Positions 4,352 through 59,105 of a DNA stretch of 64,000 bases are shown here, one piece after another. The DNA is from Herbaspirillum rubrisubalbicans. GTDB lineage: Bacteria; Pseudomonadota; Gammaproteobacteria; Burkholderiales; Burkholderiaceae_D. Location of the stretch: assembly GCF_003719195.1 (NCBI RefSeq), contig NZ_CP024996.1:4092001-4156000 (forward strand), in the 5' to 3' direction. Position 1 is the first letter of the stretch. The number at the start of each line of letters is the position of its first letter. The position numbers and the translations under genes were made by a program. The notes below the pieces were generated by a model. The model saw only the letters and a list, made by a program, of their open reading frames with translations, did no database searches and had not been told where the DNA came from.

Positions 4352-5917
4352 CAGGTTGATGACGAACCCCGTGTTTTCGAACACGGGGTTTTGTTTTTCA
4401 GGCGCAGGTAATTTGCAGATGGTCGATGGCGCAGAAGCCAAGCAAGGCGCGCATTTTTCGCTGTAGCCACTTTTGTACGCTGGCAGAGGCGCTCAAGCCG
4501 TGTAAAAGCGCGCGCAAGCGCGCCACCAACAGGGCAATCTTCTTCATGTTCTGGGCCGCCGCCGCCAACAAGCACTGCTCGGCGACCTTGCGCAATCCCC
4601 GCATACGGGCATAACGATGTCCGTGCAATTGCTTGGCGTCGGCGAAGCTGCGTTCTACCGTTTCCTTGCGTCGGGCATAGATGCGCTTGCCCCATTCGGT
4701 ACGACGCCGATCATCCACCTTCTCCTTGGAACGCTCCCACACATGGCGCGTCACCACCTTGACCGCATTGGCGCTATTGGTGCATTGCTCGCGTACCTTG
4801 CAGCCTCGGCATTGCTCAGGGTTGGATTTGTATTCCCGATACCCCAGTCGATTGGTCGTGCTGTAGCGCAAGGGTTGACCCTGCGGGCAGATGTATTCGT
4901 CACGGTAGGCATCGTACTCATACGCCCGTTTAAAGAATGTCCCCGGCTTGTGGTTGGGTGTGCGGTAGCCCATCACGCCGCTGATCTCGCGATTCTCCAG
5001 TCCCTGGCAGACGGCCGGTGTGAAGTAGCCCGCATCCAGGCCAACGGCCTGTACATCAAATCCGAACGTCTGGCGCTGACGATCCAGGCGCGCCAGATAA
5101 GGCTGACTGTCATGGACTGAGGCGGGCGTGACATGGGTATCGGTAATGATGGAATGCTTGGCATCGACGGTGCGGTGATCCAGGTAGAAGAAGCCCTTGG
5201 GCTTGTCGTCGCGCACCATGTAGCCACTCTCGGGATCGGTGCGACTGACCTTGATCTCTTTGGTGGGCGGCTCATCATCGTCGTCACGCTTGAGCGGTTT
5301 CTTGCCATGCTCGGCACGGTCGATATCCACAGCGGCATCCAATTCGGCCAGATAGGCCGAGGGGGTCTGGGTAACTTGAACGTAGTCGAACTTGTTCTTG
5401 TTGGCGTTGGCCTTGAGGTGGGTGCTGTCGCTGTAGAGCACACGGCCATCGACCATGCCGCGTCCAATGGCCTGGCGCACGATCTCGTCGAAGATCTCTT
5501 GATAGACGGTGGTATCAATGAAGCGGCGGCGCCGGTTCTGGGAGAAGGTGGAGGAGTCCGGTACCTTGTCGGTCAAACGGAATCCGGCAAACCAGCGATA
5601 GGCCACATTGACCTGGACCTCGCGGATGAGCTGGCGCTCGCTGCGGATACCGAAGAGGTAACCGATGAACAAGAGCTTGAAGAGTACCACCGGGTCCAGT
5701 GCCGGGCGGCCATTGTCGGCGCAATACAGATGCGCCACCTTCTCTCGGATGAACTCGAAATCCACCGCCGCGTCGATCTTGCGCAGCAGGTGGTCCTTGG
5801 GCACGAGCATCTCGATGGTCACCATCTCTAACTCGTGCTGGGCGGCTGTCGGTTTTTTGAGCATGACCGATTAAACAACAAAGCCTTGGCTCTCGCCAAG
5901 GCTTTGTCATCAATCTG
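4352..5917 (-). mobile_element. IS1182-family insertion sequence, tandem copy 3 (variant)
   Basis: Same length and ends as copies 1 and 2 but with scattered substitutions. Examples are near 4815-4850 (GCTCAGGG and CCAGTCG instead of GTTCAGGC and CTGCCG), 5225, 5341, 5364, 5553 and 5576. By eye there are roughly nine differences. Copy 3 therefore has a history separate from the identical pair. Confidence 0.9.
4398..5864 (-). CDS. IS1182-family DDE transposase, copy 3
   Basis: 488 aa. It differs from copies 1 and 2 at two residues close to the Cys cluster: N-R-L-G-Y instead of N-R-Q-G-Y, and K-S-N-P-E instead of K-S-K-P-E. The other nucleotide changes are silent. All putative catalytic residues are retained, so it is probably active. 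Confidence 0.92.
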   Translation of the reverse strand: MLKKPTAAQHELEMVTIEMLVPKDHLLRKIDAAVDFEFIREKVAHLYCADNGRPALDPVVLFKLLFIGYLFGIRSERQLIREVQVNVAYRWFAGFRLTDKVPDSSTFSQNRRRRFIDTTVYQEIFDEIVRQAIGRGMVDGRVLYSDSTHLKANANKNKFDYVQVTQTPSAYLAELDAAVDIDRAEHGKKPLKRDDDDEPPTKEIKVSRTDPESGYMVRDDKPKGFFYLDHRTVDAKHSIITDTHVTPASVHDSQPYLARLDRQRQTFGFDVQAVGLDAGYFTPAVCQGLENREISGVMGYRTPNHKPGTFFKRAYEYDAYRDEYICPQGQPLRYSTTNRLGYREYKSNPEQCRGCKVREQCTNSANAVKVVTRHVWERSKEKVDDRRRTEWGKRIYARRKETVERSFADAKQLHGHRYARMRGLRKVAEQCLLAAAAQNMKKIALLVARLRALLHGLSASASVQKWLQRKMRALLGFCAIDHLQITCA

Positions 5918-5945
5918 AGCCGCTTCTTTGGAAGCGGCTTTTTCT
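5918..5945 (+). terminator. Original helicase terminator, right copy with intact T-tract
   Basis: GCCGCTTC / GAAGCGGC hairpin followed by TTTTTCTT. This is the only copy that keeps the U-tract of an intrinsic terminator. It marks the right side of the insertion site. The uninterrupted terminator would have joined the A-run at 1145-1150 to this T-run. Confidence 0.85.
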
Positions 5946-5966
5946 TGGCACGCCAAACTCACAGGC

Positions 5967-6221
5967 TCATGCAAGCAACCATTGACCATCGCGCTTGATG
6001 GCGTCGTGCATGGCATCGGGAGCAAGGTCCAATTCCCCAGGCCAGGTCACCACGCCATCCACTAGGCAGACCTGCCTGAACTGCCTCTGATCGCGCAGCG
6101 GTGCAAAGACGCCACGAAAGAAACTGGGAAGGAATCTGACCGGGCCTTCCACCCCATCCCTGAAGCGGACCTGCAAGGCATAGTCGCCAGAAAGTTTGAC
6201 TTCAACCACATCCCATTCCAT
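5967..6221 (-). CDS. DUF2442-domain protein
   Basis: 84 aa, uncharacterised. Core features seen are M-E-W-D-V-V-E-V-K, then Y-A-L-Q-V-R-F-R-D-G and a conserved F-L-P-S-F-F-style segment, which fit the small DUF2442 family. I chose the ATG at 6221 because GGAG lies about 8 nt upstream. A TTG at 6242 is in frame but would overlap the preceding gene. The gene starts 4 bp after the stop of the DUF4160 gene, so the two are almost certainly co-transcribed and probably co-translated. These two families are often neighbours; a toxin-antitoxin-like role has been suspected but the sequence does not show one. No catalytic motif is visible. Confidence 0.75.
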   Translation of the reverse strand: MEWDVVEVKLSGDYALQVRFRDGVEGPVRFLPSFFRGVFAPLRDQRQFRQVCLVDGVVTWPGELDLAPDAMHDAIKRDGQWLLA

Positions 6222-6225
6222 ATCA

Positions 6226-6486
6226 TCACTCCAAAGGCGCAATCGGCTTGGGGGCCTGCATGTCCTGGCAAAGCGTCCAGTCTTCTAGCAATTCTGCTTG
6301 ATGCAACTCAGTCCAATCCAGCACAAGTTGCAAGGCTCTGCGGGGCAACTGCCCTTCCAATAGCACCAACTTCCTGACATCAATCACGGCCTTGTATTCG
6401 GCATAGCGAACATGAAAATGCGGAGGCGCGTGATCACGATAAAACATCTGAATCACGATTCCATAAAACGTACTGATCGTCGGCAC
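6226..6486 (-). CDS. DUF4160-domain protein
   Basis: 86 aa, uncharacterised. It has the family hallmark near the N-terminus: P-T-I-S-T-F-Y-G-I-V-I-Q-M-F followed by H-A-P-P-H-F-H-V-R-Y, where the P-P-H-F-H-V motif is typical of DUF4160. Translation starts at GTG with GAGGGTGA just upstream. It is the first gene of a two-gene unit with the DUF2442 gene. Function is unknown. The histidine-rich turn could bind metal or nucleic acid, but nothing here proves it. The pair lies between the IS array and the pqi operon. Confidence 0.78.
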   Translation of the reverse strand: MPTISTFYGIVIQMFYRDHAPPHFHVRYAEYKAVIDVRKLVLLEGQLPRRALQLVLDWTELHQAELLEDWTLCQDMQAPKPIAPLE

Positions 6487-6596
6487 AGGTTCACCCTCGT
6501 ATCCATCGGTTCATACCGATTTGGGTAATTCCCTCCCGCGCAAGATTTTACAAGCAAGCTTGGACGACAGCGATTTCTTCGCCTACATCTTCGAAC

Positions 6597-7229
6597 TCAG
6601 GAAGAACACTGCCCCTGTCCCGCCTGCAAAGAGCGTACATTGCCGGCAATTTCCTGCACCGCCTGCGCCACCACCTTCTGCGTGGCCGCCACCACCTCGG
6701 CATTGCTGGCGCCGCTGACCGGTTCCACCGCCGTAAGGCGGCAGGCGAGGCTGCGGCGGTCGTCGGAGCGGGTGATGGTCCAGCCGAAGACGGCCTGGAC
6801 CTGGCCGTTGCGGGTGGCTTCGAAGTCGCGCAGCTCGACGTTGATGCGATAGCTGACCTGGTCGGCCGGGCGTCCGCTGCGCGAGACGTCGATGGCGCCC
6901 AGTCGTGAAGCCACGCCAGCGGCCAAGGCGTCGCGTAATTCATTGTTGAAGGGTGAGGCCCAGCGGTCCTGCTCCAGTACCTCCACCCGCGTGGCATCGC
7001 TGCGCACCACTAGTTGCGGACGAGCCAGGCGCTCGGGCACGGCCACCGGCATCACCTCGATGAAGCTCTGCGGCCCTTGACCCGCGGTGCGCGTGCTGGC
7101 ACCGCCATCGGCGGGGCTGGTCAGAGTGTAGAACTGCGTGGGCGGCGAGCTGCCGCAGGCCGCCAGGGAGAACGCCAGCGCGGTTGCGGCCAGGGTCTTG
7201 AGAGTGAGGCTGTTTTTCTTTTGCATCAT
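6597..7229 (-). CDS. pqiC: PqiC-like outer-membrane lipoprotein
   Basis: 210 aa. Lipoprotein signal with lipobox S-L-A-A-C (Cys near residue 25), followed by P-P-T-Q-F-Y-T-L, typical of the ABC-transport-auxiliary lipoprotein (DUF330/PqiC) family. In E. coli, PqiABC forms a periplasm-spanning lipid-trafficking tunnel and PqiC sits in the inner leaflet of the outer membrane. The start codon overlaps the pqiB stop by 4 bp (ATGA), showing translational coupling. It is the last gene of the minus-strand unit pqiA(N)-pqiA(C)-pqiB-pqiC. No terminator was found in the 110 bp before the DUF4160 start. Confidence 0.9.
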   Translation of the reverse strand: MMQKKNSLTLKTLAATALAFSLAACGSSPPTQFYTLTSPADGGASTRTAGQGPQSFIEVMPVAVPERLARPQLVVRSDATRVEVLEQDRWASPFNNELRDALAAGVASRLGAIDVSRSGRPADQVSYRINVELRDFEATRNGQVQAVFGWTITRSDDRRSLACRLTAVEPVSGASNAEVVAATQKVVAQAVQEIAGNVRSLQAGQGQCSS

Positions 7230-8854
7230 GGCTCCTGTTTGCCCCGGATCAGCGACTCCGGATGCTGTTGCAGGTAATCGGTGAGGATGCGGATCGAGGC
7301 CGCCGCCTTGCTCAGTTCCTGCATGGTCTGGCGGATATCCTGCTGCAGCGGCGCATCGTCGGACAAGGTGCGCTCGGCCGCATTCAAGGTCTTGCGCGCA
7401 TCCTTCATGGCCGCCTGCATCTCGGGGGCGATATCGTTGTTGATGTGCGCAGCGGTCTGCTCGGCCGTGGACAGGGTCTTGTTGAGTGTCTTCAAGGTGG
7501 TCTGCAGATCGTGTCCGATCTCATCGAAAGGCACCTTGGAGAGCTTGCCGGCGATGTCCGACAGTTGCTGCTGCAACTCATCCAGGCTGCCCGGGATGGT
7601 GGGCAACTCCAGCGGTGTCTTGTCGGGATCAATCTGCGCCGGCTTGGCCTTGGGGAAGAAGTCGATGGCCACATACAACTGACCGGTCAGCAGATTGCCG
7701 TTGCGCAGTTGCGCGCGCAGGCCGCGCTTGACCAGGGTGCGCAACAAGTGCGCGTTGGAGCGGCGCTGTCCGTCGGTCTCTTCCTGGAAGCGGCGGCCCA
7801 GTCGATCCGGGTAGATCTGCACCATGACCGGCATCCGGAACTCGCCGCGCTGCTTGTCGTATTCCACCCCGATGCTCTTGACTTCGCCCAGCACCACGCC
7901 GCGGAAATCGACCGTGGCACCGGGCTGCAAGCCGCGCAGGGATTGGTCGAAGTACAGCACCGCAGTCTGCGGCACGCCGTCAGGCTCCTTCATGGCGGCG
8001 CTTTCGTCTTCCACCAGTTGGTATTCGGTACCTTCCTTGGCCGGCGCACTGGTCTGATATTCGTCGCGATCGCGGAAGGCAATGCCCCCCAGCACCACAG
8101 TCGACAGCGCCTGGGTGTGCAGCTTGAAGCCGCTGGCGTTGAGTTCCATGTCGAAGCCACTGGCGTGCCAGAAACGCGAACCTTGTGTGACGAACTTGTC
8201 GTAAGGCGCATTGACGAAGATGCGCAGCGTCACGCCGCGACCATCGCTATCCAGATCGTAGGCCACCACCTGGCCGACCTTGATGCGGCGATAGAAGATG
8301 GGCGAACCGATGTCCAGCGACCCAAGGTCATCGGTATGCAGCACGAACTGGCGCCCGGAGACGTCGCGCGTGACGATGGGCGGCTGTTCCAGGCCGACGA
8401 AGTTCTTCTTGGTTTCTTCCGAAGCCCCGGCGTCGGCGCCGATATAGGCGCCCGAGAGCAAGGTACCCAGGCCGGAAATGCCGGAGGCGGCAATGCGCGG
8501 ACGCACCACCCAGAAGCGGGTGTCCTCGGCGTTGAAGCCGGACGCTTCCTGGTTGAGCTGAATGCCCACCAGCACGTGCGAGCGGTCGGACGCCAGCTTC
8601 AGGGTCTGCACCTGGCCGATCTCCACATCCTTGTACTTGACCTTGGTCTTGCCCGCTTCCAGCCCTTCGGCCGAACGGAAGCTGACCGTCACCATGGGGC
8701 CGCGGTCAACCAGGATCTTGGCCACCAGGGTCAGGCCGACGATGGCGGCGATGATGGGAATGAGCCAGACCAGCGAAGGTAGCCAGTTGCGCTGGCGCAC
8801 CCGCCGCGGTTGCAGCAGCGCCGGTTTGTCCTCGGGAGTGTCGGGTGGAGTCAT
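7226..8854 (-). CDS. pqiB: PqiB-like MCE-domain membrane-tethered protein
   Basis: 542 aa. One N-terminal transmembrane anchor (about residues 28-46, S-L-V-W-L-I-P-I-I-A-A-I-V-G-L). Three MCE/MlaD modules follow, recognisable by V-T-V-S-F-R-S-A-E-G-L-E-A-G, the D-D-L-G-S-L-D-I-G-S-P-I-F-Y-R-R segment, and D-F-R-G-V-V-L-G-E-V. A long helical C-terminal region rich in Leu/Ala/Gln heptads (about 415-530) corresponds to the needle-like coiled coil of E. coli PqiB that bridges the periplasm. It overlaps both neighbours by 4 bp. Length and domain number match PqiB rather than MlaD (one MCE) or YebT/LetB (seven). Confidence 0.93.
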   Translation of the reverse strand: MTPPDTPEDKPALLQPRRVRQRNWLPSLVWLIPIIAAIVGLTLVAKILVDRGPMVTVSFRSAEGLEAGKTKVKYKDVEIGQVQTLKLASDRSHVLVGIQLNQEASGFNAEDTRFWVVRPRIAASGISGLGTLLSGAYIGADAGASEETKKNFVGLEQPPIVTRDVSGRQFVLHTDDLGSLDIGSPIFYRRIKVGQVVAYDLDSDGRGVTLRIFVNAPYDKFVTQGSRFWHASGFDMELNASGFKLHTQALSTVVLGGIAFRDRDEYQTSAPAKEGTEYQLVEDESAAMKEPDGVPQTAVLYFDQSLRGLQPGATVDFRGVVLGEVKSIGVEYDKQRGEFRMPVMVQIYPDRLGRRFQEETDGQRRSNAHLLRTLVKRGLRAQLRNGNLLTGQLYVAIDFFPKAKPAQIDPDKTPLELPTIPGSLDELQQQLSDIAGKLSKVPFDEIGHDLQTTLKTLNKTLSTAEQTAAHINNDIAPEMQAAMKDARKTLNAAERTLSDDAPLQQDIRQTMQELSKAAASIRILTDYLQQHPESLIRGKQEP

Positions 8855-51253: not shown

Positions 51254-51646
51254 ATGAAAAAGACAATATCCACGTTCATTCTCTTCTCACTATCAGCGCT
51301 TCATGCCCAAGCATCCGACTGCAGCAAAGCCAGAAACTTCGCTGAAACTGAAATCTGCAAAGACCATTTACTGAGTGCGCTCGACATGACGCTAAACAGG
51401 AATTACCGCGTCATGATGGCCTCGGATATCGGGACGGTTGCCCGGAAAAATCTCTCTGCTTCGCAACGGCTCTGGCTTCAGGAAAGAAACAGATGCAAGG
51501 ACAAGGAATGCATCACTACCTTGTACAAACGCCGACTTGCCGACATCTGCGACTACCCAGTTATCGCAGGCGTTCATCCGGTCTGCGATGAATTCAACGA
51601 TGTTGTAGAGAACGATTTGCAACGACATGACGGTGAGAAAAGATGA
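51254..51646 (+). CDS. Secreted LprI-like (DUF1311) protein
   Basis: 130 aa. Sec signal peptide (M-K-K-T-I-S-T-F-I-L-F-S-L-S-A-L-H-A-Q-A, cleavage before S-D-C). The mature part has the DUF1311 pattern: D-C-S-K-A-R-N-F-A-E-T-E-I-C, L-D-M-T-L-N-R-N-Y, Q-R-L-W-L-Q-E-R-N-R-C and a later C-I-T-T-L-Y. At least five cysteines suggest disulfides. The family includes LprI, described as a lysozyme inhibitor, but most members are uncharacterised. Codon use is AT-richer than in the surrounding core genes. No strong ribosome-binding site is seen. Confidence 0.72.
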   Translation: MKKTISTFILFSLSALHAQASDCSKARNFAETEICKDHLLSALDMTLNRNYRVMMASDIGTVARKNLSASQRLWLQERNRCKDKECITTLYKRRLADICDYPVIAGVHPVCDEFNDVVENDLQRHDGEKR

Positions 51647-52380: not shown

Positions 52381-53307
52381 ATGAGTAGAGAAAAACCAAG
52401 AATCGCTAAGAGGCCCGGAATCGATATTACTAACAAAAAACATGTCTTATTATTGGTGGCGTTATTGACATACAGCCATTCTGCATCAGCGGACTTACCC
52501 TTGACTATTGATGACCTTGTTACAGAAAAAGGTAAGGTCAAGATTGATGTATCGGTAGCCTATGCCAATAGTGATAGACAAGGCGTATCCACTGGCGAAC
52601 CGATCACGGTGCAGACAGGAGAAAACTCATTTGTTACGTTACCGACACTGATCGGCGAGAGTCGCGGCAACAGCGATTCGCTGGTAAGCACCGTGGGATT
52701 ACGCTATGGATTAACTAACAAAGCTGAAATTTTCTTCCGTACCTCGTATCTGTATAGCAGCACCAGAAAGAGAGATCTATCCAGAACAACCAGCGACAGC
52801 GAAAGCCAGTTTTCGGATACATGGGCGGGCGTCAACTATCAACTCAAAGAAGACAACGGCACACCGGCCTTGCTAGGTTTTGCAGAGATCGCCTTACGAG
52901 AAAGACATACGAGAAGCAGCAGTTCTTTCCATTCCTTCCTGCTAGGCTTTACTGCCCACACAGCGCTTGATCCCATTGTGTTTTCCCTTACCACTGCCTA
53001 TCGCTTCAACCAAAGCCGCAACGATGGAGAACAAGACTATAAGCCCGGCAACTTCTTGTTGATCCATCCTGGCATCGCCTTTGCTGTCAACGATCATGTC
53101 ACTTTGACTGGCGGCATGCAGTGGGTCAATCGTCAAGCGGATAAATGGGATGGAAAGGCTCAAGGATTCCGACGTACAAGCAGCGCCTTGTTACTTGGCG
53201 TGGGATATGGCATTTCAAAAGCAAGCACCATCAACATCACTCTGAAATCCAATGTCTCAGGTTCAAACGAGGCGGACCTGAGGCTCAATTGGCTGCACAC
53301 GTTTTGA
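52381..53307 (+). CDS. Outer-membrane beta-barrel protein (MetA-pathway/phenol-transporter-like fold)
   Basis: 308 aa. A long N-region is followed by a Sec signal core (V-L-L-L-V-A-L-L-T-Y) and cleavage after S-A-S-A. The mature part alternates polar and hydrophobic residues in strand-like blocks: V-G-L-R-Y-G-L-T-N-K-A-E-I-F-F-R, W-A-G-V-N-Y-Q-L, F-A-E-I-A-L-R-E-R. It ends with aromatic W-L-H-T-F, the Phe C-terminus used as a Bam signal. Domain style resembles the putative MetA-pathway family, which contains many unassigned barrels. First gene of a four-gene AT-rich unit; its role as the export pore of the cassette is inference. Confidence 0.78.
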   Translation: MSREKPRIAKRPGIDITNKKHVLLLVALLTYSHSASADLPLTIDDLVTEKGKVKIDVSVAYANSDRQGVSTGEPITVQTGENSFVTLPTLIGESRGNSDSLVSTVGLRYGLTNKAEIFFRTSYLYSSTRKRDLSRTTSDSESQFSDTWAGVNYQLKEDNGTPALLGFAEIALRERHTRSSSSFHSFLLGFTAHTALDPIVFSLTTAYRFNQSRNDGEQDYKPGNFLLIHPGIAFAVNDHVTLTGGMQWVNRQADKWDGKAQGFRRTSSALLLGVGYGISKASTINITLKSNVSGSNEADLRLNWLHTF

Positions 53308-53352
53308 CGTCTGCCGGTTGAAATCTTGCCTTGACTCCCCCTAAGGATAGAT

Positions 53353-53796
53353 ATGAAATTAAAACAAATCATCATAGTAGGCGCCCTGTCTGTCAGCACG
53401 GCTCCCCTTGTCTACGCGAAGGAAATAGCATCAGAGCCATTGCCGCAATTCACAATGACGGACGCTGAAGCTCTATTTGAAAACGATACTAAGTCCATGC
53501 AATTAGCAGCGCTTTCACCTCAAGAAATGAAAGAGACTGAAGGAGCGTGGGTGAATTTCGCCGTTGGCGGGGCTATCGGCTTTGGGTCCTATGCCTTAGC
53601 TAATTACGTCACCAATCGACCAATTACCTGGCAAGGTTCGCTGTATTCAATCGGTACGGGGGCGCTTACCGGCGGAATGGGTGGTGCGCTAATACGCGCA
53701 TCTGGCGGAGGCCTTGCCGGACAGATCGCCTGGAGGCCCAATATCCTGGCGTCCAACTTTGGTGCCTCACAATACAGCCGATATCGTGGTTGGTAA
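53353..53796 (+). CDS. Gly-rich precursor with Sec signal and internal GA-type leader
   Basis: 147 aa. Residues 1-22 are a Sec signal peptide (cleavage after V-Y-A). An acidic propeptide follows, ending in L-S-P-Q-E-M-K-E-T-E-G-A (residues 54-65). This matches the leader pattern of C39-processed peptides (L-S-x-x-E-M-x-x-x-x-G-G/GA). Predicted cleavage after A65 would release an 82-residue product rich in Gly/Ala. That product has two hydrophobic, GxxxG-like stretches (A-V-G-G-A-I-G-F-G and G-A-L-T-G-G-M-G-G-A-L-I-R-A-S-G-G-G), like class II microcins or amyloid subunits. It has no Cys. AAGGA precedes the ATG. Neighbouring C39 peptidase and barrel support secretion. Confidence 0.75.
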   Translation: MKLKQIIIVGALSVSTAPLVYAKEIASEPLPQFTMTDAEALFENDTKSMQLAALSPQEMKETEGAWVNFAVGGAIGFGSYALANYVTNRPITWQGSLYSIGTGALTGGMGGALIRASGGGLAGQIAWRPNILASNFGASQYSRYRGW

Positions 53797-53812
53797 TTAA
53801 CTAAAAGGATGA

Positions 53813-53836
53813 GATGAGGTGCGAACTCACCTCATC
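53813..53836 (+). promoter_or_regulatory. Hairpin between the precursor and downstream cassette genes
   Basis: GATGAGGTG / CACCTCATC with a 6-nt loop, 17 bp after the precursor stop and just before the next ribosome-binding site (AGGAG, 53841-53845). With no T-run it probably stabilises or partly terminates the message, allowing more precursor than peptidase. Confidence 0.55.
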
Positions 53837-53850
53837 CTTCAGGAGATGCT

Positions 53851-54105
53851 ATGAGCTTGATAGTTGCATTGACAGAGATGCTAGGTGGCATGCTGGCAGA
53901 ATATTCAATACAAAAGAAATGGAGTAAGGTCAAAATATTCTTTGTAACGAGCGCCATTTTTTTCGCTACTTCTTTGGTCAACCTTCTTGTTTTTGAACAT
54001 GGAAGCGGGGTACTTTTGGCCATCTCAGGGTCAGCCATCTTAGGGGTAAGTCTCGGCATTTTTTTTGTACTGACCATTTATATACATGAAAAAACCAAGA
54101 AGTAA
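53851..54105 (+). CDS. Small two-to-three-helix membrane protein (possible immunity protein)
   Basis: 84 aa. Hydrophobic segments at about residues 28-47 (I-F-F-V-T-S-A-I-F-F-A-T-S-L-V-N-L-L-V-F) and 52-78 (V-L-L-A-I-S-G-S-A-I-L-G-V-S-L-G-I-F-F-V-L-T-I-Y-I), with a basic C-terminal tail. No family recognised. AGGAG precedes the ATG. Its 3' end overlaps the peptidase gene by 20 bp. Its size, topology and place between precursor and protease are those of a bacteriocin immunity protein, but it could equally be an assembly factor. Confidence 0.62.
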   Translation: MSLIVALTEMLGGMLAEYSIQKKWSKVKIFFVTSAIFFATSLVNLLVFEHGSGVLLAISGSAILGVSLGIFFVLTIYIHEKTKK

Positions 54106-54829
54106 GAAGCTCTACTCTTTAAGAACCGACGCACTTTCATGCATCCTTTCTCTGACCAGCCTCTTTGCCCCCAGCTCTGCTTTCTCTTTAGACCTGCCCG
54201 GTTATTTAGGAAAGAAAAATCCGCCTGACAGCATTCTTCTGCTAAACACGCATACTGCCCAAATCAGCATTGCCATCAGAAGCTGGAAGAGCCTACGCGA
54301 TGTAGATGTAGTCAAGCAAGACTTCGACTACTCGTGTAGTGCGGCATCCCTGGCAACCTTACTCAACGGGTTTTACGGTCAGTCTCTCACTGAGGAGTCT
54401 TTGCTCAAGGCGATGGACAAGGGCGACTTGAAGGCATCTTTCGAAGACATGCAAAAGATACTACCGAGATTCGGATTCAAGGCGCAAGGATTTGCTGCAA
54501 GTTATGAGCAACTGGTCAAGCTCAAAGCGCCAGTCGTGGTGTATCTCAAACACCGCAAGGATGATCACTTTTCGGTTCTGCGCGGCATCAATGAGAACAT
54601 GGTCTGGTTAGCAGATCCTAGTCTTGGAAACAGAACGTACAGCAAGGCTCAATTTCTGGAAATGTGGCAAACCAGGAACGACAAGGAACGCGAAGAATTA
54701 TCTGGAAAGATTCTGGCCATTTTGCCGCTCAACAGTAAGGTGTCAAGCAACTCAAATTTCTTTTCAAAGAATCCACGTCGGCAGACTATCCAAGCAGTTG
54801 AACAATCGAAAATCCTGATGTTTCCATAA
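54086..54829 (+). CDS. Exported C39-family cysteine peptidase
   Basis: 247 aa. N-terminal signal peptide (basic start, A-L-S-C-I-L-S-L-T-S-L-F-A core, cleavage near A-F-S). The C39 domain follows: oxyanion Q78 and catalytic C84 in Q-D-F-D-Y-S-C-S-A-A-S-L, then H161 in D-D-H-F-S-V-L-R-G-I and D177 in A-D-P-S-L-G. It has no ABC or membrane domain, unlike C39 domains of bacteriocin exporters. A stand-alone periplasmic C39 protease resembles FapD of the Pseudomonas functional-amyloid system. Predicted role: cutting the GA-type leader of the precursor at 53353. Confidence 0.85.
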   Translation: MKKPRSKKLYSLRTDALSCILSLTSLFAPSSAFSLDLPGYLGKKNPPDSILLLNTHTAQISIAIRSWKSLRDVDVVKQDFDYSCSAASLATLLNGFYGQSLTEESLLKAMDKGDLKASFEDMQKILPRFGFKAQGFAASYEQLVKLKAPVVVYLKHRKDDHFSVLRGINENMVWLADPSLGNRTYSKAQFLEMWQTRNDKEREELSGKILAILPLNSKVSSNSNFFSKNPRRQTIQAVEQSKILMFP

Positions 54830-54888: not shown

Positions 54889-57800
54889 TCACCGCTGCAT
54901 ACTCTCCCACACCTTCTGCAAGCGCTTCACCGACACCGGCATGGGGGTCTTCAATTCCTGCGCGTACAGGGACACCCGCAATTCCTCCAGCATCCAACGA
55001 AATTCCGTCATCTTGGGATCGGCACGGCCAGCGCGGTCCTTGAGACCACGCTGATACGGCAGGGCCACCGAATTCCACTCTGCCAGCAAGCGCGTATCGC
55101 GGGCCGGGTCGGCGCGCAACTTGTCCAGCCGCACGTTGATGGCCTTGAGGTAACGCGGATAGTGGCTCAGGTTGCCATAGTCGGTCTCGGCCACGAAACG
55201 CTTGCCCACCAGTTGCGACAATTGCGCCTGCATGTCGGCCGCCGCCTGGGCGTGGGCCTTGATGCCTTGCAGCTTCTTGGGCAGCGAGTGGTACTCGGCC
55301 AGGATCAATCCACACAGGCGGGCAATTTCATTGACCAGCAAACCCAGCCGCGCCTTACCCTCATCGCGGCGACGGTTGAATTCGTCGGCGTTGCGCGGCA
55401 GCGGGTCTTGCAGGAAGGCGCGTTCCAGGCCGGCATTCAATATCTGTTCACGCAACTCTTCCTGCGTGCCCAGGGCCATGAACTGCATCCCCATCTGCTG
55501 CAGACCCGGGATGTTCTTTTCCAGGTACTTGAGCTGTTCCTTCATCTGCAGGGCGAACAGGCGACGCAGACCGGCGTAATGGAAACGCGCAGCCTCGGTG
55601 GGGTCATCGAACACTTCCAGGTCGCAATGCGTGAGCCTGTCCACCAGCGCCGGGAAGCCGATCAGCGTCTGCGCCTGCTTGCCGCTGCCACGCGTGATCT
55701 CCAGCAGCTCGGGCAATTCACCAAAGCTCCAGCTGGTGAGATTGCTGTACTCGCCCACCGAAGCAGGCGCAGCCGGTGTCGCGATGGTCGCGCCCCCCTT
55801 GCCTGCGGCGGCCGCAGGCAAAGGTGCCGCACTATCCTCGTCCTCACGCGGGGCAATGGCCACCTGCTCGGCCAGCTTCTGGAACTGCTGGCGTGCCTGA
55901 CCGCCGAATTCGGCTTGCAGCGCGGCCAGGTTGCGGCCCATCTCCAGTTGCCGTCCATGTTCATCGACGATCTTGAAGTTCATCGCATGGTGGGCCGAGA
56001 GCGTCTCCTGCTTGAAGTCGCTGGGCTTGACCAGGAGCGTGATCTGCTCGCGGATGTCGGCGATGATGGCGTCGATCAGGTTGCCGCGACCAAAGGTCTT
56101 GCGCTCTTCCATGCGCTCGCAGAAGCGCGCGGCATAATCGGGCAGCGGGACACAGTGGCGGCGCAGCTTTTGCGGCAGAGACTTCAACAGCAGGTGGACT
56201 TTTTCCTTCAACATGCCCGGCACCAGCCACTCGCAACGATCCGCGGAGACCTGGTTCAATGCATACAGCGGCACGGTCAGCGTCACCCCATCGCGCGCGG
56301 CACCCGGTTCGAAGTGATAGGACAGCGCCATGGCAATACCCGCCACATTCATGGTCTTGGGGAAGAGCTCGGTGGTCACGCCCGCCGCCTCGTGACGCAT
56401 CAGGTCGTCGCGGTTCAGGTAGAGCAGCTTGGGGTCGGCTGCCGTGGCCTGCTTGTGCCACTTCTCGAAGTCCACGCCATTGCAGATGTCCTGCGGGATC
56501 AGCTTGTCGTAGAAACCGATGATCAATTCATCGTCCACCAGCACGTCCAGGCGGCGCGACTTGTGTTCCAGGTTTTCGATTTCGCGCACCAGCTTCTGGT
56601 TGTGCGCGAAGAACGGGGCGCGGGTCTCGAAGTCGCCACCGACCAGGGCATCGCGGATGAAGATCTCGCGCGCCTCAACCGGATTGATGTTGCCGTAGTT
56701 GATGCGGCGCTGGCTGTACACCACCAGGCCATACAAGGTGGCGCGCTCAGAGGCCGTCACTTGCGCGGCGCGTTTTTCCCAGCGCGGTTCGCCCCAGGAT
56801 TTCTTCAACAGGTGGCCGCCCAGTTTTTCCAGCCATTCGGGCTGGATGTTGGCCACGCAACGGGCATACAGGCGGGCGGTGTCGACCAGCTCGGCCGCCA
56901 TCACCCAGCGACCGGGTTTCTTGGTCAGATGGGCGCCGGGCCAGATGTTGAACTTGATGCCGCGCGCGCCCAGGTATTGCGCATCCTCTTCGCTCTTGAA
57001 ACCGACGTTGCCCAACAAGCCGGTCAGCAGGGCCAGGTGCAATTGGTCGTAAGTGGCCGCTGCTTCGTTCAAGCGCCAGCCCTGTTCCTTGACGATGGTC
57101 AGCAGTTGCGAATGGACATCGCGCCATTCGCGCAGGCGCAGTTGCGACAGGAAATTCTCGCGGCAGTGTTCCTGCAACTGGCGATTCGATTTCTTGTGAG
57201 CGATGGCGTCTTCGAACCACTTCCAGATCTTCAGGTAACTGGCGAATTCGGATTTTTCATCGGCGAATTTCTTGTGCGCATTATCGGCCGCATTCTGCGC
57301 ATCCATGGGCCGGTCGCGCGGGTCTTGCACCGACACCGCGGCGGCGATGATGAGCAATTCGGTCAGGCAGGCATTGTCGCGGCCGGCCAGGATCATGCGG
57401 CCCACGCGCGGGTCCAATGGCAGGCGCGCCAGTTGCTTGCCCAAGGGTGTCAAGCGATTGACGCCGCCCTGCTCTTCGACTGCGCCCAGTTCCTGCAGCA
57501 ACTGGTAGCCATCGGCAATGGCGCGCCCCAGCGGCGGCTCGATGAAGGGGAAGCTCTCCACGTCCATCAGGTGCAGCGACTTCATGCGCAGGATGACCGA
57601 GGCCAGCGACGAACGCATAATCTCGGGATCGGTGAACTTGGGACGTTGCAGGAAATCCTGTTCGTCATACAGACGGATGCACACGCCCGCCGCCACCCGG
57701 CCGCAGCGACCAGCGCGCTGGTTGGCAGCCGACTGCGCCACCGGCTCGATCTGCAATTGCTCGACCTTGTTGCGGTAGCTGTAACGCTTCACCCGCGCCA

Positions 57801-58944
57801 GACCGGCATCGACCACATAGCGGATCCCGGGCACGGTCAGTGAAGTTTCCGCCACATTGGTGGCCAGCACGATGCGGCGGGCGTTGCTGGTCTTGAAGAC
57901 GCGCTCCTGCTCCTGCGCCGACAGGCGCGCAAACAGCGGCAGGATTTCCACATGCGGTGGATGATGCTTGCGCAGCGCTTCGGCAGCGTCGCGGATTTCA
58001 CGTTCGCCCGGCAGGAACACCAACACGTCGCCCGAACCGATGCGCGCCAGTTCATCGACGGCATCGACCACGGCATCCATCAGGTCGCGCTGTTCGCGGT
58101 CCTTCTGGGCCTGGCTGGCGCGTCCCTCGGCACGCGCACGGGCTTGCGCCACTTCGGTGGAGACGCCGCTGCGATCGGCATTGTCGATAGGGCGATAACG
58201 GATTTCCACCGGGTAGAGGCGGCCGGAGACCTCGATCACCGGCGCCGGCACCAGCTCGCCCTTGAGCTCACGCCCGAAATGGCGGGCGAAGCGGTCGGCG
58301 TCGATGGTGGCCGAGGTGATGATGATCTTCAGGTCGGGACGCTTGGGCAGCAACTGCTTCAGATAGCCCAGCAGAAAGTCGATGTTGAGGCTGCGTTCAT
58401 GCGCCTCGTCGATGATGATGGTGTCGTACTGGCGTAAGAGCGGATCGGTCTGGGTCTCGGCCAGCAGGATGCCGTCGGTCATCAGCTTGATCCAGGCGCC
58501 CTTGGACAGGGTGTCGTTGAAGCGGACCTTGTAGCCGACCAGCTCGCCCGGTGGCGAATTCAATTCCTGGGCGATGCGCTTGGCGGTGGAAGAGGCGGCG
58601 ATACGGCGCGGCTGGGTGTGGCCGATCAAGCCCTTGGCGCCACGGCCCAGTTCCAGGCAGATCTTGGGGAGCTGGGTGGTCTTGCCGGAACCGGTCTCAC
58701 CGCTGACGATGATGACCTGGTGTCGGCGCAGCGCCTCGGCGATTTCATGGCGGCGGCCGGAGACCGGCAGCTCTTCCGGGAAGGTCACCGGAGGCAGCGG
58801 ATTGCGTACCGGCGGCGCGGCCTCGCTGGCAGGCTCGGCGCGGCGGGGTCCACGCGGCTCGCGCGGGCCGCGTCCACGATCCTGTTGCGGGGTCTGCTGG
58901 GGCTGGGCGCCAGGGGGAGTGTTGGGTGCTTTGGTAACGGACAT
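54889..58944 (-). CDS. hrpA: ATP-dependent RNA helicase HrpA
   Basis: 1,351 aa DEAH/RHA helicase, the usual HrpA size. After a Pro/Arg/Gln-rich N-terminus: Walker A G-E-T-G-S-G-K-T (residues 82-89), D-E-A-H, S-A-T, then the helicase-C motif Q-R-A-G-R-C-G-R, the HA2 and OB-fold regions, and the large HrpA-specific C-terminal domain. HrpA rescues stalled ribosomes on mRNA in E. coli. ATG 58944 (M-S-V-T-K-A-P) is supported by a strong promoter whose start point falls just upstream; the longer frame to 59052 would run through that promoter. Divergent from argA. Confidence 0.95.
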   Translation of the reverse strand: MSVTKAPNTPPGAQPQQTPQQDRGRGPREPRGPRRAEPASEAAPPVRNPLPPVTFPEELPVSGRRHEIAEALRRHQVIIVSGETGSGKTTQLPKICLELGRGAKGLIGHTQPRRIAASSTAKRIAQELNSPPGELVGYKVRFNDTLSKGAWIKLMTDGILLAETQTDPLLRQYDTIIIDEAHERSLNIDFLLGYLKQLLPKRPDLKIIITSATIDADRFARHFGRELKGELVPAPVIEVSGRLYPVEIRYRPIDNADRSGVSTEVAQARARAEGRASQAQKDREQRDLMDAVVDAVDELARIGSGDVLVFLPGEREIRDAAEALRKHHPPHVEILPLFARLSAQEQERVFKTSNARRIVLATNVAETSLTVPGIRYVVDAGLARVKRYSYRNKVEQLQIEPVAQSAANQRAGRCGRVAAGVCIRLYDEQDFLQRPKFTDPEIMRSSLASVILRMKSLHLMDVESFPFIEPPLGRAIADGYQLLQELGAVEEQGGVNRLTPLGKQLARLPLDPRVGRMILAGRDNACLTELLIIAAAVSVQDPRDRPMDAQNAADNAHKKFADEKSEFASYLKIWKWFEDAIAHKKSNRQLQEHCRENFLSQLRLREWRDVHSQLLTIVKEQGWRLNEAAATYDQLHLALLTGLLGNVGFKSEEDAQYLGARGIKFNIWPGAHLTKKPGRWVMAAELVDTARLYARCVANIQPEWLEKLGGHLLKKSWGEPRWEKRAAQVTASERATLYGLVVYSQRRINYGNINPVEAREIFIRDALVGGDFETRAPFFAHNQKLVREIENLEHKSRRLDVLVDDELIIGFYDKLIPQDICNGVDFEKWHKQATAADPKLLYLNRDDLMRHEAAGVTTELFPKTMNVAGIAMALSYHFEPGAARDGVTLTVPLYALNQVSADRCEWLVPGMLKEKVHLLLKSLPQKLRRHCVPLPDYAARFCERMEERKTFGRGNLIDAIIADIREQITLLVKPSDFKQETLSAHHAMNFKIVDEHGRQLEMGRNLAALQAEFGGQARQQFQKLAEQVAIAPREDEDSAAPLPAAAAGKGGATIATPAAPASVGEYSNLTSWSFGELPELLEITRGSGKQAQTLIGFPALVDRLTHCDLEVFDDPTEAARFHYAGLRRLFALQMKEQLKYLEKNIPGLQQMGMQFMALGTQEELREQILNAGLERAFLQDPLPRNADEFNRRRDEGKARLGLLVNEIARLCGLILAEYHSLPKKLQGIKAHAQAAADMQAQLSQLVGKRFVAETDYGNLSHYPRYLKAINVRLDKLRADPARDTRLLAEWNSVALPYQRGLKDRAGRADPKMTEFRWMLEELRVSLYAQELKTPMPVSVKRLQKVWESMQR

Positions 58945-58953
58945 GAGGCCGAC

Positions 58954-58982
58954 ATTATACCTGCCACCGCCCGCCCGGTCAG
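58954..58982 (-). promoter_or_regulatory. hrpA promoter
   Basis: Minus strand: -35 CTGACC (58982-58977), 17-bp spacer, perfect -10 TATAAT (58959-58954). Predicted start about 58948, leaving only a few bases before the ATG at 58944. Confidence 0.65.
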
Positions 58983-59105
58983 GCTGCAGGCGGCTGCTCG
59001 GCCGATGATGCCGGTTTGACGGCAAGCTGGCTCCGGTTTGCAACATCTGCACAAGAAATCTGCCCCGAACCGGCCCGCAAGCCTACGCCCGGGCGCGACG
59101 CTGGT

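Follow-up and report, generated by a model that had tools for sequence, protein, structure and literature searches.

In this work, we describe a four-gene locus of Herbaspirillum rubrisubalbicans that appears to encode a bacteriocin-like precursor together with a C39 peptidase, a small membrane protein and an outer-membrane barrel. It lies at positions 52381-54829 of a stretch of 64,000 nucleotides (contig NZ_CP024996.1, positions 4,092,001 to 4,156,000, forward strand), which is referred to below as the window; the host genome consists of one contig of 5.6 Mb. Loci and genomes used for comparison are denoted by L and G numbers. The layout given in the initial annotation is confirmed: there are four open frames on one strand, in the order barrel, precursor, small membrane protein and C39 peptidase. 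The precursor follows the barrel after 45 nt, the small gene follows the precursor after 54 nt, and the C39 gene overlaps the small gene by 20 nt. The GC content of this island is 47%, against 62% for the window. The features are as follows.

52381..53307, + strand: outer-membrane barrel, NapF/HmcD-like, a short relative of the Fap-like barrels, 308 aa as annotated (homology, hhalign)
53353..53796, + strand: bacteriocin-like precursor, 147 aa (Sec-like start, conserved second leader, homologues)
53353..53418, + strand: probable Sec signal peptide of the precursor, residues 1-22 (sequence; A22 at least 90% conserved in 48 sequences)
53419..53547, + strand: second, C39-type leader, residues 23-65, ending in LSPQEMKETEGA (five of six invariant columns)
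53548..53793, + strand: predicted mature peptide, 82 aa, glycine/alanine-rich, no Asp or Glu (composition; diverges between loci more than the machinery)
53805..53839, + strand: hairpin between precursor and small gene (DNA fold -10.4 kcal/mol, z -3.65)
53851..54105, + strand: small membrane protein, 84 aa, two helices predicted from the hydropathy of homologues, probable immunity protein (covariation with the core)
54086..54829, + strand: stand-alone C39 peptidase with N-terminal signal, probably periplasmic; C84 (54335-54337), H161, D177 (PF03412)

Proteins encoded by the locus

The C39 protein (247 aa) matches the Pfam family PF03412 above its cutoff (E 2.3e-22) and contains no transporter or ABC domain. 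Together with an N-terminal signal, which we judged by eye, this agrees with the original description of a C39 peptidase that has a signal peptide and lacks a transporter domain. Residues Q78, C84, H161 and D177 are invariant across ten aligned C39 sequences, including that of the window. The barrel, the precursor and the small protein all score below the cutoff of every model in Pfam and NCBIfam.

The N-terminus of the precursor is of the Sec type, with a cleavage site that we read by eye between VYA and KE, and is followed by the second leader, which ends in E-G-A at residue 65. This arrangement, already proposed in the initial annotation, is borne out by both the sequence and its conservation. 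At an E-value of 0.01 the search for precursor homologues yielded 89 proteins, the window's own included; those of Herbaspirillum are near-identical or 71-80% identical, and one H. rubrisubalbicans copy is 98% identical at 61% coverage. In an alignment of the window precursor with 47 of the 89 homologues, six columns are invariant, five of which (F42, L54, M59, T62 and G64) lie in the second leader, the sixth being G103; four of the ten nearly invariant columns also lie in the second leader. The second-leader motif is also found in precursors of Herbaspirillum, Acinetobacter, Neisseria, Comamonas and others, and in 38 of the 43 precursor open reading frames (ORFs) that bear the motif the leader comes after a Sec signal, as assessed by eye and by a crude script with duplicates included.

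The mature core of 82 aa contains 21% Gly, 13% Ala and 10% Asn plus Gln, and no Asp or Glu. It has no detectable internal repeat, since 161 of 200 shuffled sequences score at least as well. No enzymatic domain was matched in the core. When ten precursors and ten neighbouring proteins were compared with Pfam, all matches fell below cutoff, and among 48 precursors no Pfam family had more than four members and all matches were weak. The NCBIfam model TIGR03949 (class IIb bacteriocin, cutoff 21.5) was passed by two of seven scanned precursors, L200:2799-3248 and L074:3407-3874, with scores of 22.9 and 23.4; the window precursor gave no match to it. A search of phages with the window precursor gave no match, and its sole match among plasmids was pTR11_4. 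The core of L033b, searched against plasmids, matched itself and a sister record only.

The true start of the barrel is uncertain, because the annotated start gives a signal peptide with an unusually long n-region. The barrel is 40% identical to a gonococcal barrel and 25% identical over 202 aa to HmcD of p250 (E 1.8e-13 in a small ORF set; E 6e-6 by tblastn). Contrary to the initial annotation, which regarded it as unlike FapF, the family profile of the barrel aligns over 253 columns to ten long barrels that adjoin more distant C39s (hhalign 99.5%, E 2.3e-23), by which we reject the idea that it is unrelated to Fap-like barrels. One of the ten (L044) matches the FapF model with an E-value of 4.4e-22 and a score of 78 bits, where the cutoff is 700. 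FapF is also the best, weak, match of the barrel among PDB profiles (E 0.046); the window barrel is too short for a long N-terminal domain. The barrel alignments kept 69 of 75 aligned sequences, and comprised 55 aligned of 120 listed, from 420 homologues in all. Among the best 80 loci of one C39 neighbourhood collection, a barrel-profile match adjoins the more distant C39 gene in all 14 of the loci L044-L057 and in 47 of the 53 loci L088-L140; their records carry the names of many proteobacteria and of some members of other phyla.

Recurrence and distribution of the gene set

The initial annotation suggested a search for sets of barrel, leader and C39 in proteobacteria, and such sets do recur. 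We gathered relatives of the C39 peptidase by C39 similarity and scanned their neighbourhoods afterwards. After removal of six duplicates, 50 distinct close homologues (profile E <1e-40) were available; a barrel lies near 41 of them (within 6 kb or to the end of the neighbourhood examined), a leader-matched precursor near 36, and both near 34. For the leader profile, 11 precursors taken from eight of the 50 loci and from L058 served as the training set, the remaining loci being independent, and the barrel profile was built from seven starting sequences with one iteration on the same loci. The 722 kb of sequence that lie no more than 3 kb from a C39 contain 101 barrel matches longer than 150 aa, versus 12 in 613 kb farther off; this count includes overlapping loci and uses the profile iterated on them. 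In the window, the only barrel match is the 52381-53307 frame. Nine of the 50 C39s have no barrel near them, five of which are near contig ends (L065, L069, L077, L208 and L092). The same gene order is found in Acinetobacter pTR11_4, in Comamonas, and in gammaproteobacterial and other loci.

C39 matches at an E-value of 1e-30, distant ones included, are present in 27 of 399 genomes of the order and in 26 of 369 of the class; at 1e-40, six of 34 Herbaspirillum genomes carry one. In three of these six (G000, G024 and G011) the C39 gene adjoins the 3' end of a large helicase gene, which in the window spans 54889-59052, has helicase domains and DUF3418, and is presumably HrpA-like. A 1001-bp stretch of the end of this gene is present in 32 of the 34 genus genomes. 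A second copy of the helicase 3' end stands upstream of the cluster in L061 (3439-3860, 423 bp, 87%) and a shorter one in L038 (1579-1685, 107 bp, 87%), as if the island had arrived with the gene end of its donor; upstream of the window's cluster, no helicase 3'-end copy was found. Relatives of the island are also carried on Acinetobacter, Avibacterium and Campylobacter plasmids. The island looks laterally acquired.

Several observations concern individual loci or flanking features. One gammaproteobacterial genome (G498; L212-L217) contains seven C39 matches at 1e-30, with a barrel near most of them. The small Campylobacter plasmids L035 and L036 carry a barrel, a C39 and precursors with a Sec-like start, a GG leader and a long cargo. 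In several loci (L065 910-1455, L067 5402-5986, L068 5306-5884 and L205 3886-4470) the C39 gene comes immediately after that of a similar-looking membrane protein, which is about 180-195 aa long and for which four to five helices are predicted; it is absent from the window and may be an additional part of export or maturation. In Massilia eurypsychrophila (L083 5800-6583) the C39 is split over three frames and is probably decayed, and the precursor and barrel look intact. Upstream of the window's island, in the same low-GC stretch, positions 51254-51646 encode a small signal-peptide protein of the LprI lysozyme-inhibitor family (PF07007, 23.5 bits, cutoff 22).

The hairpin at 53805-53839 is not followed by a U-run on the + strand. 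On the opposite strand it resembles a terminator, but the number of such matches is not above chance, and a scan for promoters and terminators gave no excess over shuffled sequences. A hairpin occupies the matching position in two other Herbaspirillum loci (L038, z -4.21; L039, z -7.36).

Variation of the core and the small gene

For 31 cassettes, the median normalised similarity is 0.46 for the C39, 0.38 for the barrel, 0.13 for the core and 0.07 for the small protein. The similarity of the core correlates with that of the small protein (r 0.83; partial r 0.82 when controlling for barrel and C39; 0 of 2000 permutations), and the correlation persists at a lower level in 26 cassettes from which near-duplicates had been removed (r 0.46, partial 0.45, 0 of 2000 permutations). 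For example, the window and Massilia L083 have similarities of 0.53 for the barrel, 0.64 for the core and 0.40 for the small protein; for the window and Herbaspirillum L040, the corresponding values are 0.61, 0.30 and 0.08. Homologues of the small protein with 44-45% identity in Comamonas and 39% in Massilia each adjoin the same core type. In L200 and L033, which contain three precursors each, the leaders are near-identical (0.77-0.94), the cores differ (0.06-0.10 in L200 and 0.09-0.29 in L033), and the small genes behind them are unlike (0.04-0.08).

We also considered the small protein as a part of the export machine. This was rejected because the small proteins are unrelated among loci whose machinery is related, and because only seven proteins in total, itself included, are found at an E-value of 0.01.

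A further indication comes from a relative in Neisseria gonorrhoeae. The precursor L058:5901-6440 ends in a domain that, over 93 residues, shares 52% identity with the very end of an Rhs protein from Methylomonas. The product of the gene after this Rhs gene is, among 9712 ORFs, most similar to that of the gene which follows the L058 precursor (29% over 55 residues, E 7.8e-5). Papers are cited here by their PMC numbers. An Rhs C-terminus with an immunity gene behind it is typical of polymorphic toxins (PMC3482391, PMC4287609), and the delivery systems given in the abstract and the consulted passages of PMC3482391 do not include a route through Sec, C39 and barrel. In the L058 record (5901-8048), the Rhs-type GA-leader precursor is followed by several small, possibly immunity-like genes and adjoins a NapF-like barrel, and the stand-alone C39 genes lie elsewhere.

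The covariation of core and small gene, the loci with several precursors, the TIGR03949 matches and the domain pair shared with Rhs proteins together lead us to read the family as a toxin-immunity system, in which the small membrane protein is a probable immunity protein. With this small membrane protein next to the precursor, the cargo of the window would most simply be a membrane-active bacteriocin with an inner-membrane immunity protein. Within the searches made, the evidence for the family as a toxin-immunity system is the new part of this work.

Comparison with known systems and interpretation

The haemocin locus has the gene order hmcDCBAI. In Avibacterium paragallinarum p250 it shares with the window the barrel (HmcD), a C39 with a signal peptide (31% identical to the window's, E 6e-23), a precursor with a Sec signal and a GG leader, and, next to the annotated hemocin structural protein, an annotated hemocin immunity protein. 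The window has the corresponding barrel, C39, precursor with Sec signal and C39-type leader, and neighbouring small gene, whose immunity role is presumed. The haemocin locus differs in having an additional ATPase gene, GG instead of GA, and no similarity in the core: an HmcB-like ATPase frame is not among the four at 52381-54829, and BLAST found no precursor match in L034, where only the leader profile gave one (E 2e-3). Haemocin itself is a bacteriocin of type b Haemophilus influenzae that is active on other types (PMC8873416).

The closest studied relatives of the peptidase and the barrel are found in the nap island of N. gonorrhoeae. In the stretch that presumably represents this island, the C39 is 58% identical over 179 aa to that of the window and likewise stands alone without ABC domains; a truncated barrel is 40.5% identical over 148 aa to the window barrel, and one small membrane protein is weakly similar (26.5%, E 0.012). 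In the gonococcal record, three C39 genes stand alone and a fourth C39 is part of a frame of 707 aa, for which NCBIfam matches that stay below cutoff indicate an ABC exporter. One of the stand-alone genes lies about 3.3 kb from the barrel stretch, which fits the 3.4-kb nap island; the stretch was assigned to this island by its size and content, not by its flanking genes. For the island genes (NapP, NapF, NapA-C and NapI), the authors' model is periplasmic cleavage by NapP and exit through NapF (PMC11798529). The window likewise has, in the neighbourhood of its C39, a precursor with a GG/GA leader and a FapF-class barrel close to NapF.

In view of these similarities, the initial proposal of a novel export system does not hold: the C39 and the barrel are 58% and about 40% identical to gonococcal ones of the nap type, p250 follows the same logic, and the tasks of NapP and NapF have already been proposed. 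The locus is instead apparently an intact variant of a recently described kind. In our search, which went mainly by listings and from which subscription papers were mostly absent, PMC11798529 is the only paper noticed in which a C39 peptidase is connected with a FapF-like barrel and with bacteriocin-like peptides, and none was noticed that joins haemocin, nap and Fap or that describes Rhs-type cargo in this setting.

Taken together, we consider it probable that the locus is a laterally acquired bacteriocin system of the NapP/NapF-haemocin kind with its immunity protein. In the mechanism that we propose, the 147-residue precursor would cross the inner membrane by Sec and shed residues 1-22. The periplasmic C39 would then cut after G64-A65 by means of C84, H161 and D177, as conservation and the example of FapD suggest, and the resulting 82-residue glycine-rich cationic peptide may leave through the short FapF-class barrel, to which co-occurrence and homology point. 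Outside, it may permeabilise the inner membrane of close competitors, in keeping with its composition and with the bacteriocin-profile matches of two relatives; the 84-residue membrane protein would give specific immunity to the producer, as the covariation and the toxin-immunity pairs of relatives suggest. Two elements of this scheme, double-glycine-type maturation in the periplasm and the barrel as probable exit, were anticipated in the initial annotation and are supported by the present analysis.

Several observations weigh against this interpretation. The window precursor matched no bacteriocin model. The deduplicated covariation rests largely on the three pairs that the window forms with Massilia L083 and Collimonas L074a and that these two form with each other; when they are left out, r drops to 0.23 (297 pairs, a value with no permutation behind it). 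Some cassettes depart from the trend: L040 and L062 share their core with the Neisseria-like L200b (0.67 and 0.66) although their small proteins are unlike (0.07 and 0.13), and L033b and L198 have similar cores (0.56) but small proteins at 0.11. The Rhs link concerns one relative, L058, not the window. Four C39 loci (L031, L041, L043 and L202) have no barrel though no contig end is close; a barrel is present in another part of the genome for L031 and L043, and the genomes of L041 and L202 yielded none anywhere. The host genome, moreover, holds two type I ABC exporters of the HlyB kind with a C39-type domain, which lacks the catalytic residues in our alignment. Finally, the gonococcal Naps are reported to lack antibacterial activity and to promote autolysis (PMC11798529).

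The last point favours the best-surviving alternative, a peptide of autolysis or population behaviour that acts in stationary phase on the producer's own population rather than on competitors, because NapP and NapF are the closest studied relatives of the window's C39 and barrel. We nevertheless regard it as unlikely. The nap island has phase-variable genes and three short autolysis peptides, with mature lengths of 36, 16 and 31 aa (PMC11798529), and its barrel is truncated in the gonococcal record examined, whereas the window has an intact barrel, one long core of 82 aa and its own adjoining small gene, which tracks the core type. Given such short peptides and the truncation of the barrel, nap may represent a degraded form of the family.

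Microcin V, a class II microcin, has a glycine-rich core. It is conceivable that the window precursor is an ordinary class II microcin exported by an ABC transporter elsewhere in the genome, with the stand-alone C39 as an accessory. The precursor has the GG/GA leader of this class, in its GA form, and a glycine-rich core, and class II microcins have a cognate immunity gene; they differ in using an active C39-ABC transporter, a membrane-fusion protein and TolC with no periplasmic intermediate (PMC10233263). A PF03412 search of the host genome found four C39 domains, the window gene among them. Two sit, above the PF03412 cutoff, in type I ABC exporters of 726 and 730 aa about 0.7 Mb away, so the ABC route cannot be dismissed by an absence of C39-ABC exporters. 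One of the two is neighboured by frames that resemble, by eye, membrane-fusion and TolC-type partners. However, both pass the cutoff of the HlyB-type model TIGR01846, and in the alignment they have T or S at the position of C84 and R at that of H161, so their C39-type domain looks inactive; an ABC exporter with an intact C39 triad was not found in the host genome by this search and alignment. The exporter pair (L233 947-11430) looks duplicated and by eye is surrounded by long RTX-like proteins. The Sec signal ahead of the leader, in the window and in most of the related precursor ORFs, also disfavours this route, since an ABC exporter would not need it. We therefore set this candidate aside as highly unlikely. 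The remaining C39 match in the genome (L234 1857-2258, 27.4 bits in Pfam) is partial, lies in a frame of 133-136 aa with transposase-like frames alongside, and is probably a remnant.

We also considered an amyloid or pilus subunit exported by a Fap- or Fil-like system, an amyloid subunit being the other product suggested in the initial annotation besides a microcin-like peptide. The best NCBIfam matches of the C39 are indeed FilB (82.2 bits) and FapD (80.8 bits), and the barrel is related to the long Fap-like barrels. Pseudomonas Fap has the same hybrid pathway of a periplasmic C39 and a related outer-membrane barrel; an active-site mutant of FapD abolishes secretion of FapC, the target of FapD being unclear in that paper (PMC5557850). 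However, the two scores are far under the cutoffs of 475 and 330, so that the window C39 falls short of the FapD equivalog, and the other Fap models match none of the four proteins. Fap also differs in its amyloid subunits and in the N-terminal coiled coil of FapF (PMC5557850), the window barrel being short and its cargo bacteriocin-like. The lack of repeats, the low content of Asn and Gln, the absence of acidic residues, the divergence of the cores and the Rhs-type domain of one relative led us to reject an amyloid subunit as very improbable, and the microcin-like product is the part of the original suggestion that is supported.

Equally improbable is a secreted pheromone with the small protein as a sensor or exporter accessory: double-glycine leaders serve pheromones as well, but the four frames contain no sensor or regulator domain in Pfam, the mature part is 82 aa long, and relatives carry toxin-type cargo.

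Returning to the bacteriocin interpretation, the organization of the family resembles that of the polymorphic toxins (Rhs, Cdi and MafB), in which one delivery module serves swapped toxin domains followed by immunity genes (PMC3482391, PMC4287609); the window family differs in consisting of small leader-led proteins that would pass through a barrel. We lean, by a small measure, towards a more general view: export by Sec, a C39 in the periplasm and a short barrel of the FapF class may together make up a toxin-delivery pathway that is widespread in proteobacteria, with a modular leader and interchangeable cargo cassettes, from membrane-active bacteriocins to Rhs-type domains, each with an immunity gene, of which haemocin, nap and Fap would be branches.

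If this is true, haemocin, the gonococcal autolysis peptides and Pseudomonas amyloid export would be joined in one pathway, whose substrates would be recognised by a Sec signal together with a C39 leader. The locus thus bears on two questions, namely what periplasmic C39 peptidases cut and whether the nap peptides derive from toxin-immunity cassettes, and it hints that Burkholderiales, Neisseria, Acinetobacter and others contain Gram-negative bacteriocins yet to be described.

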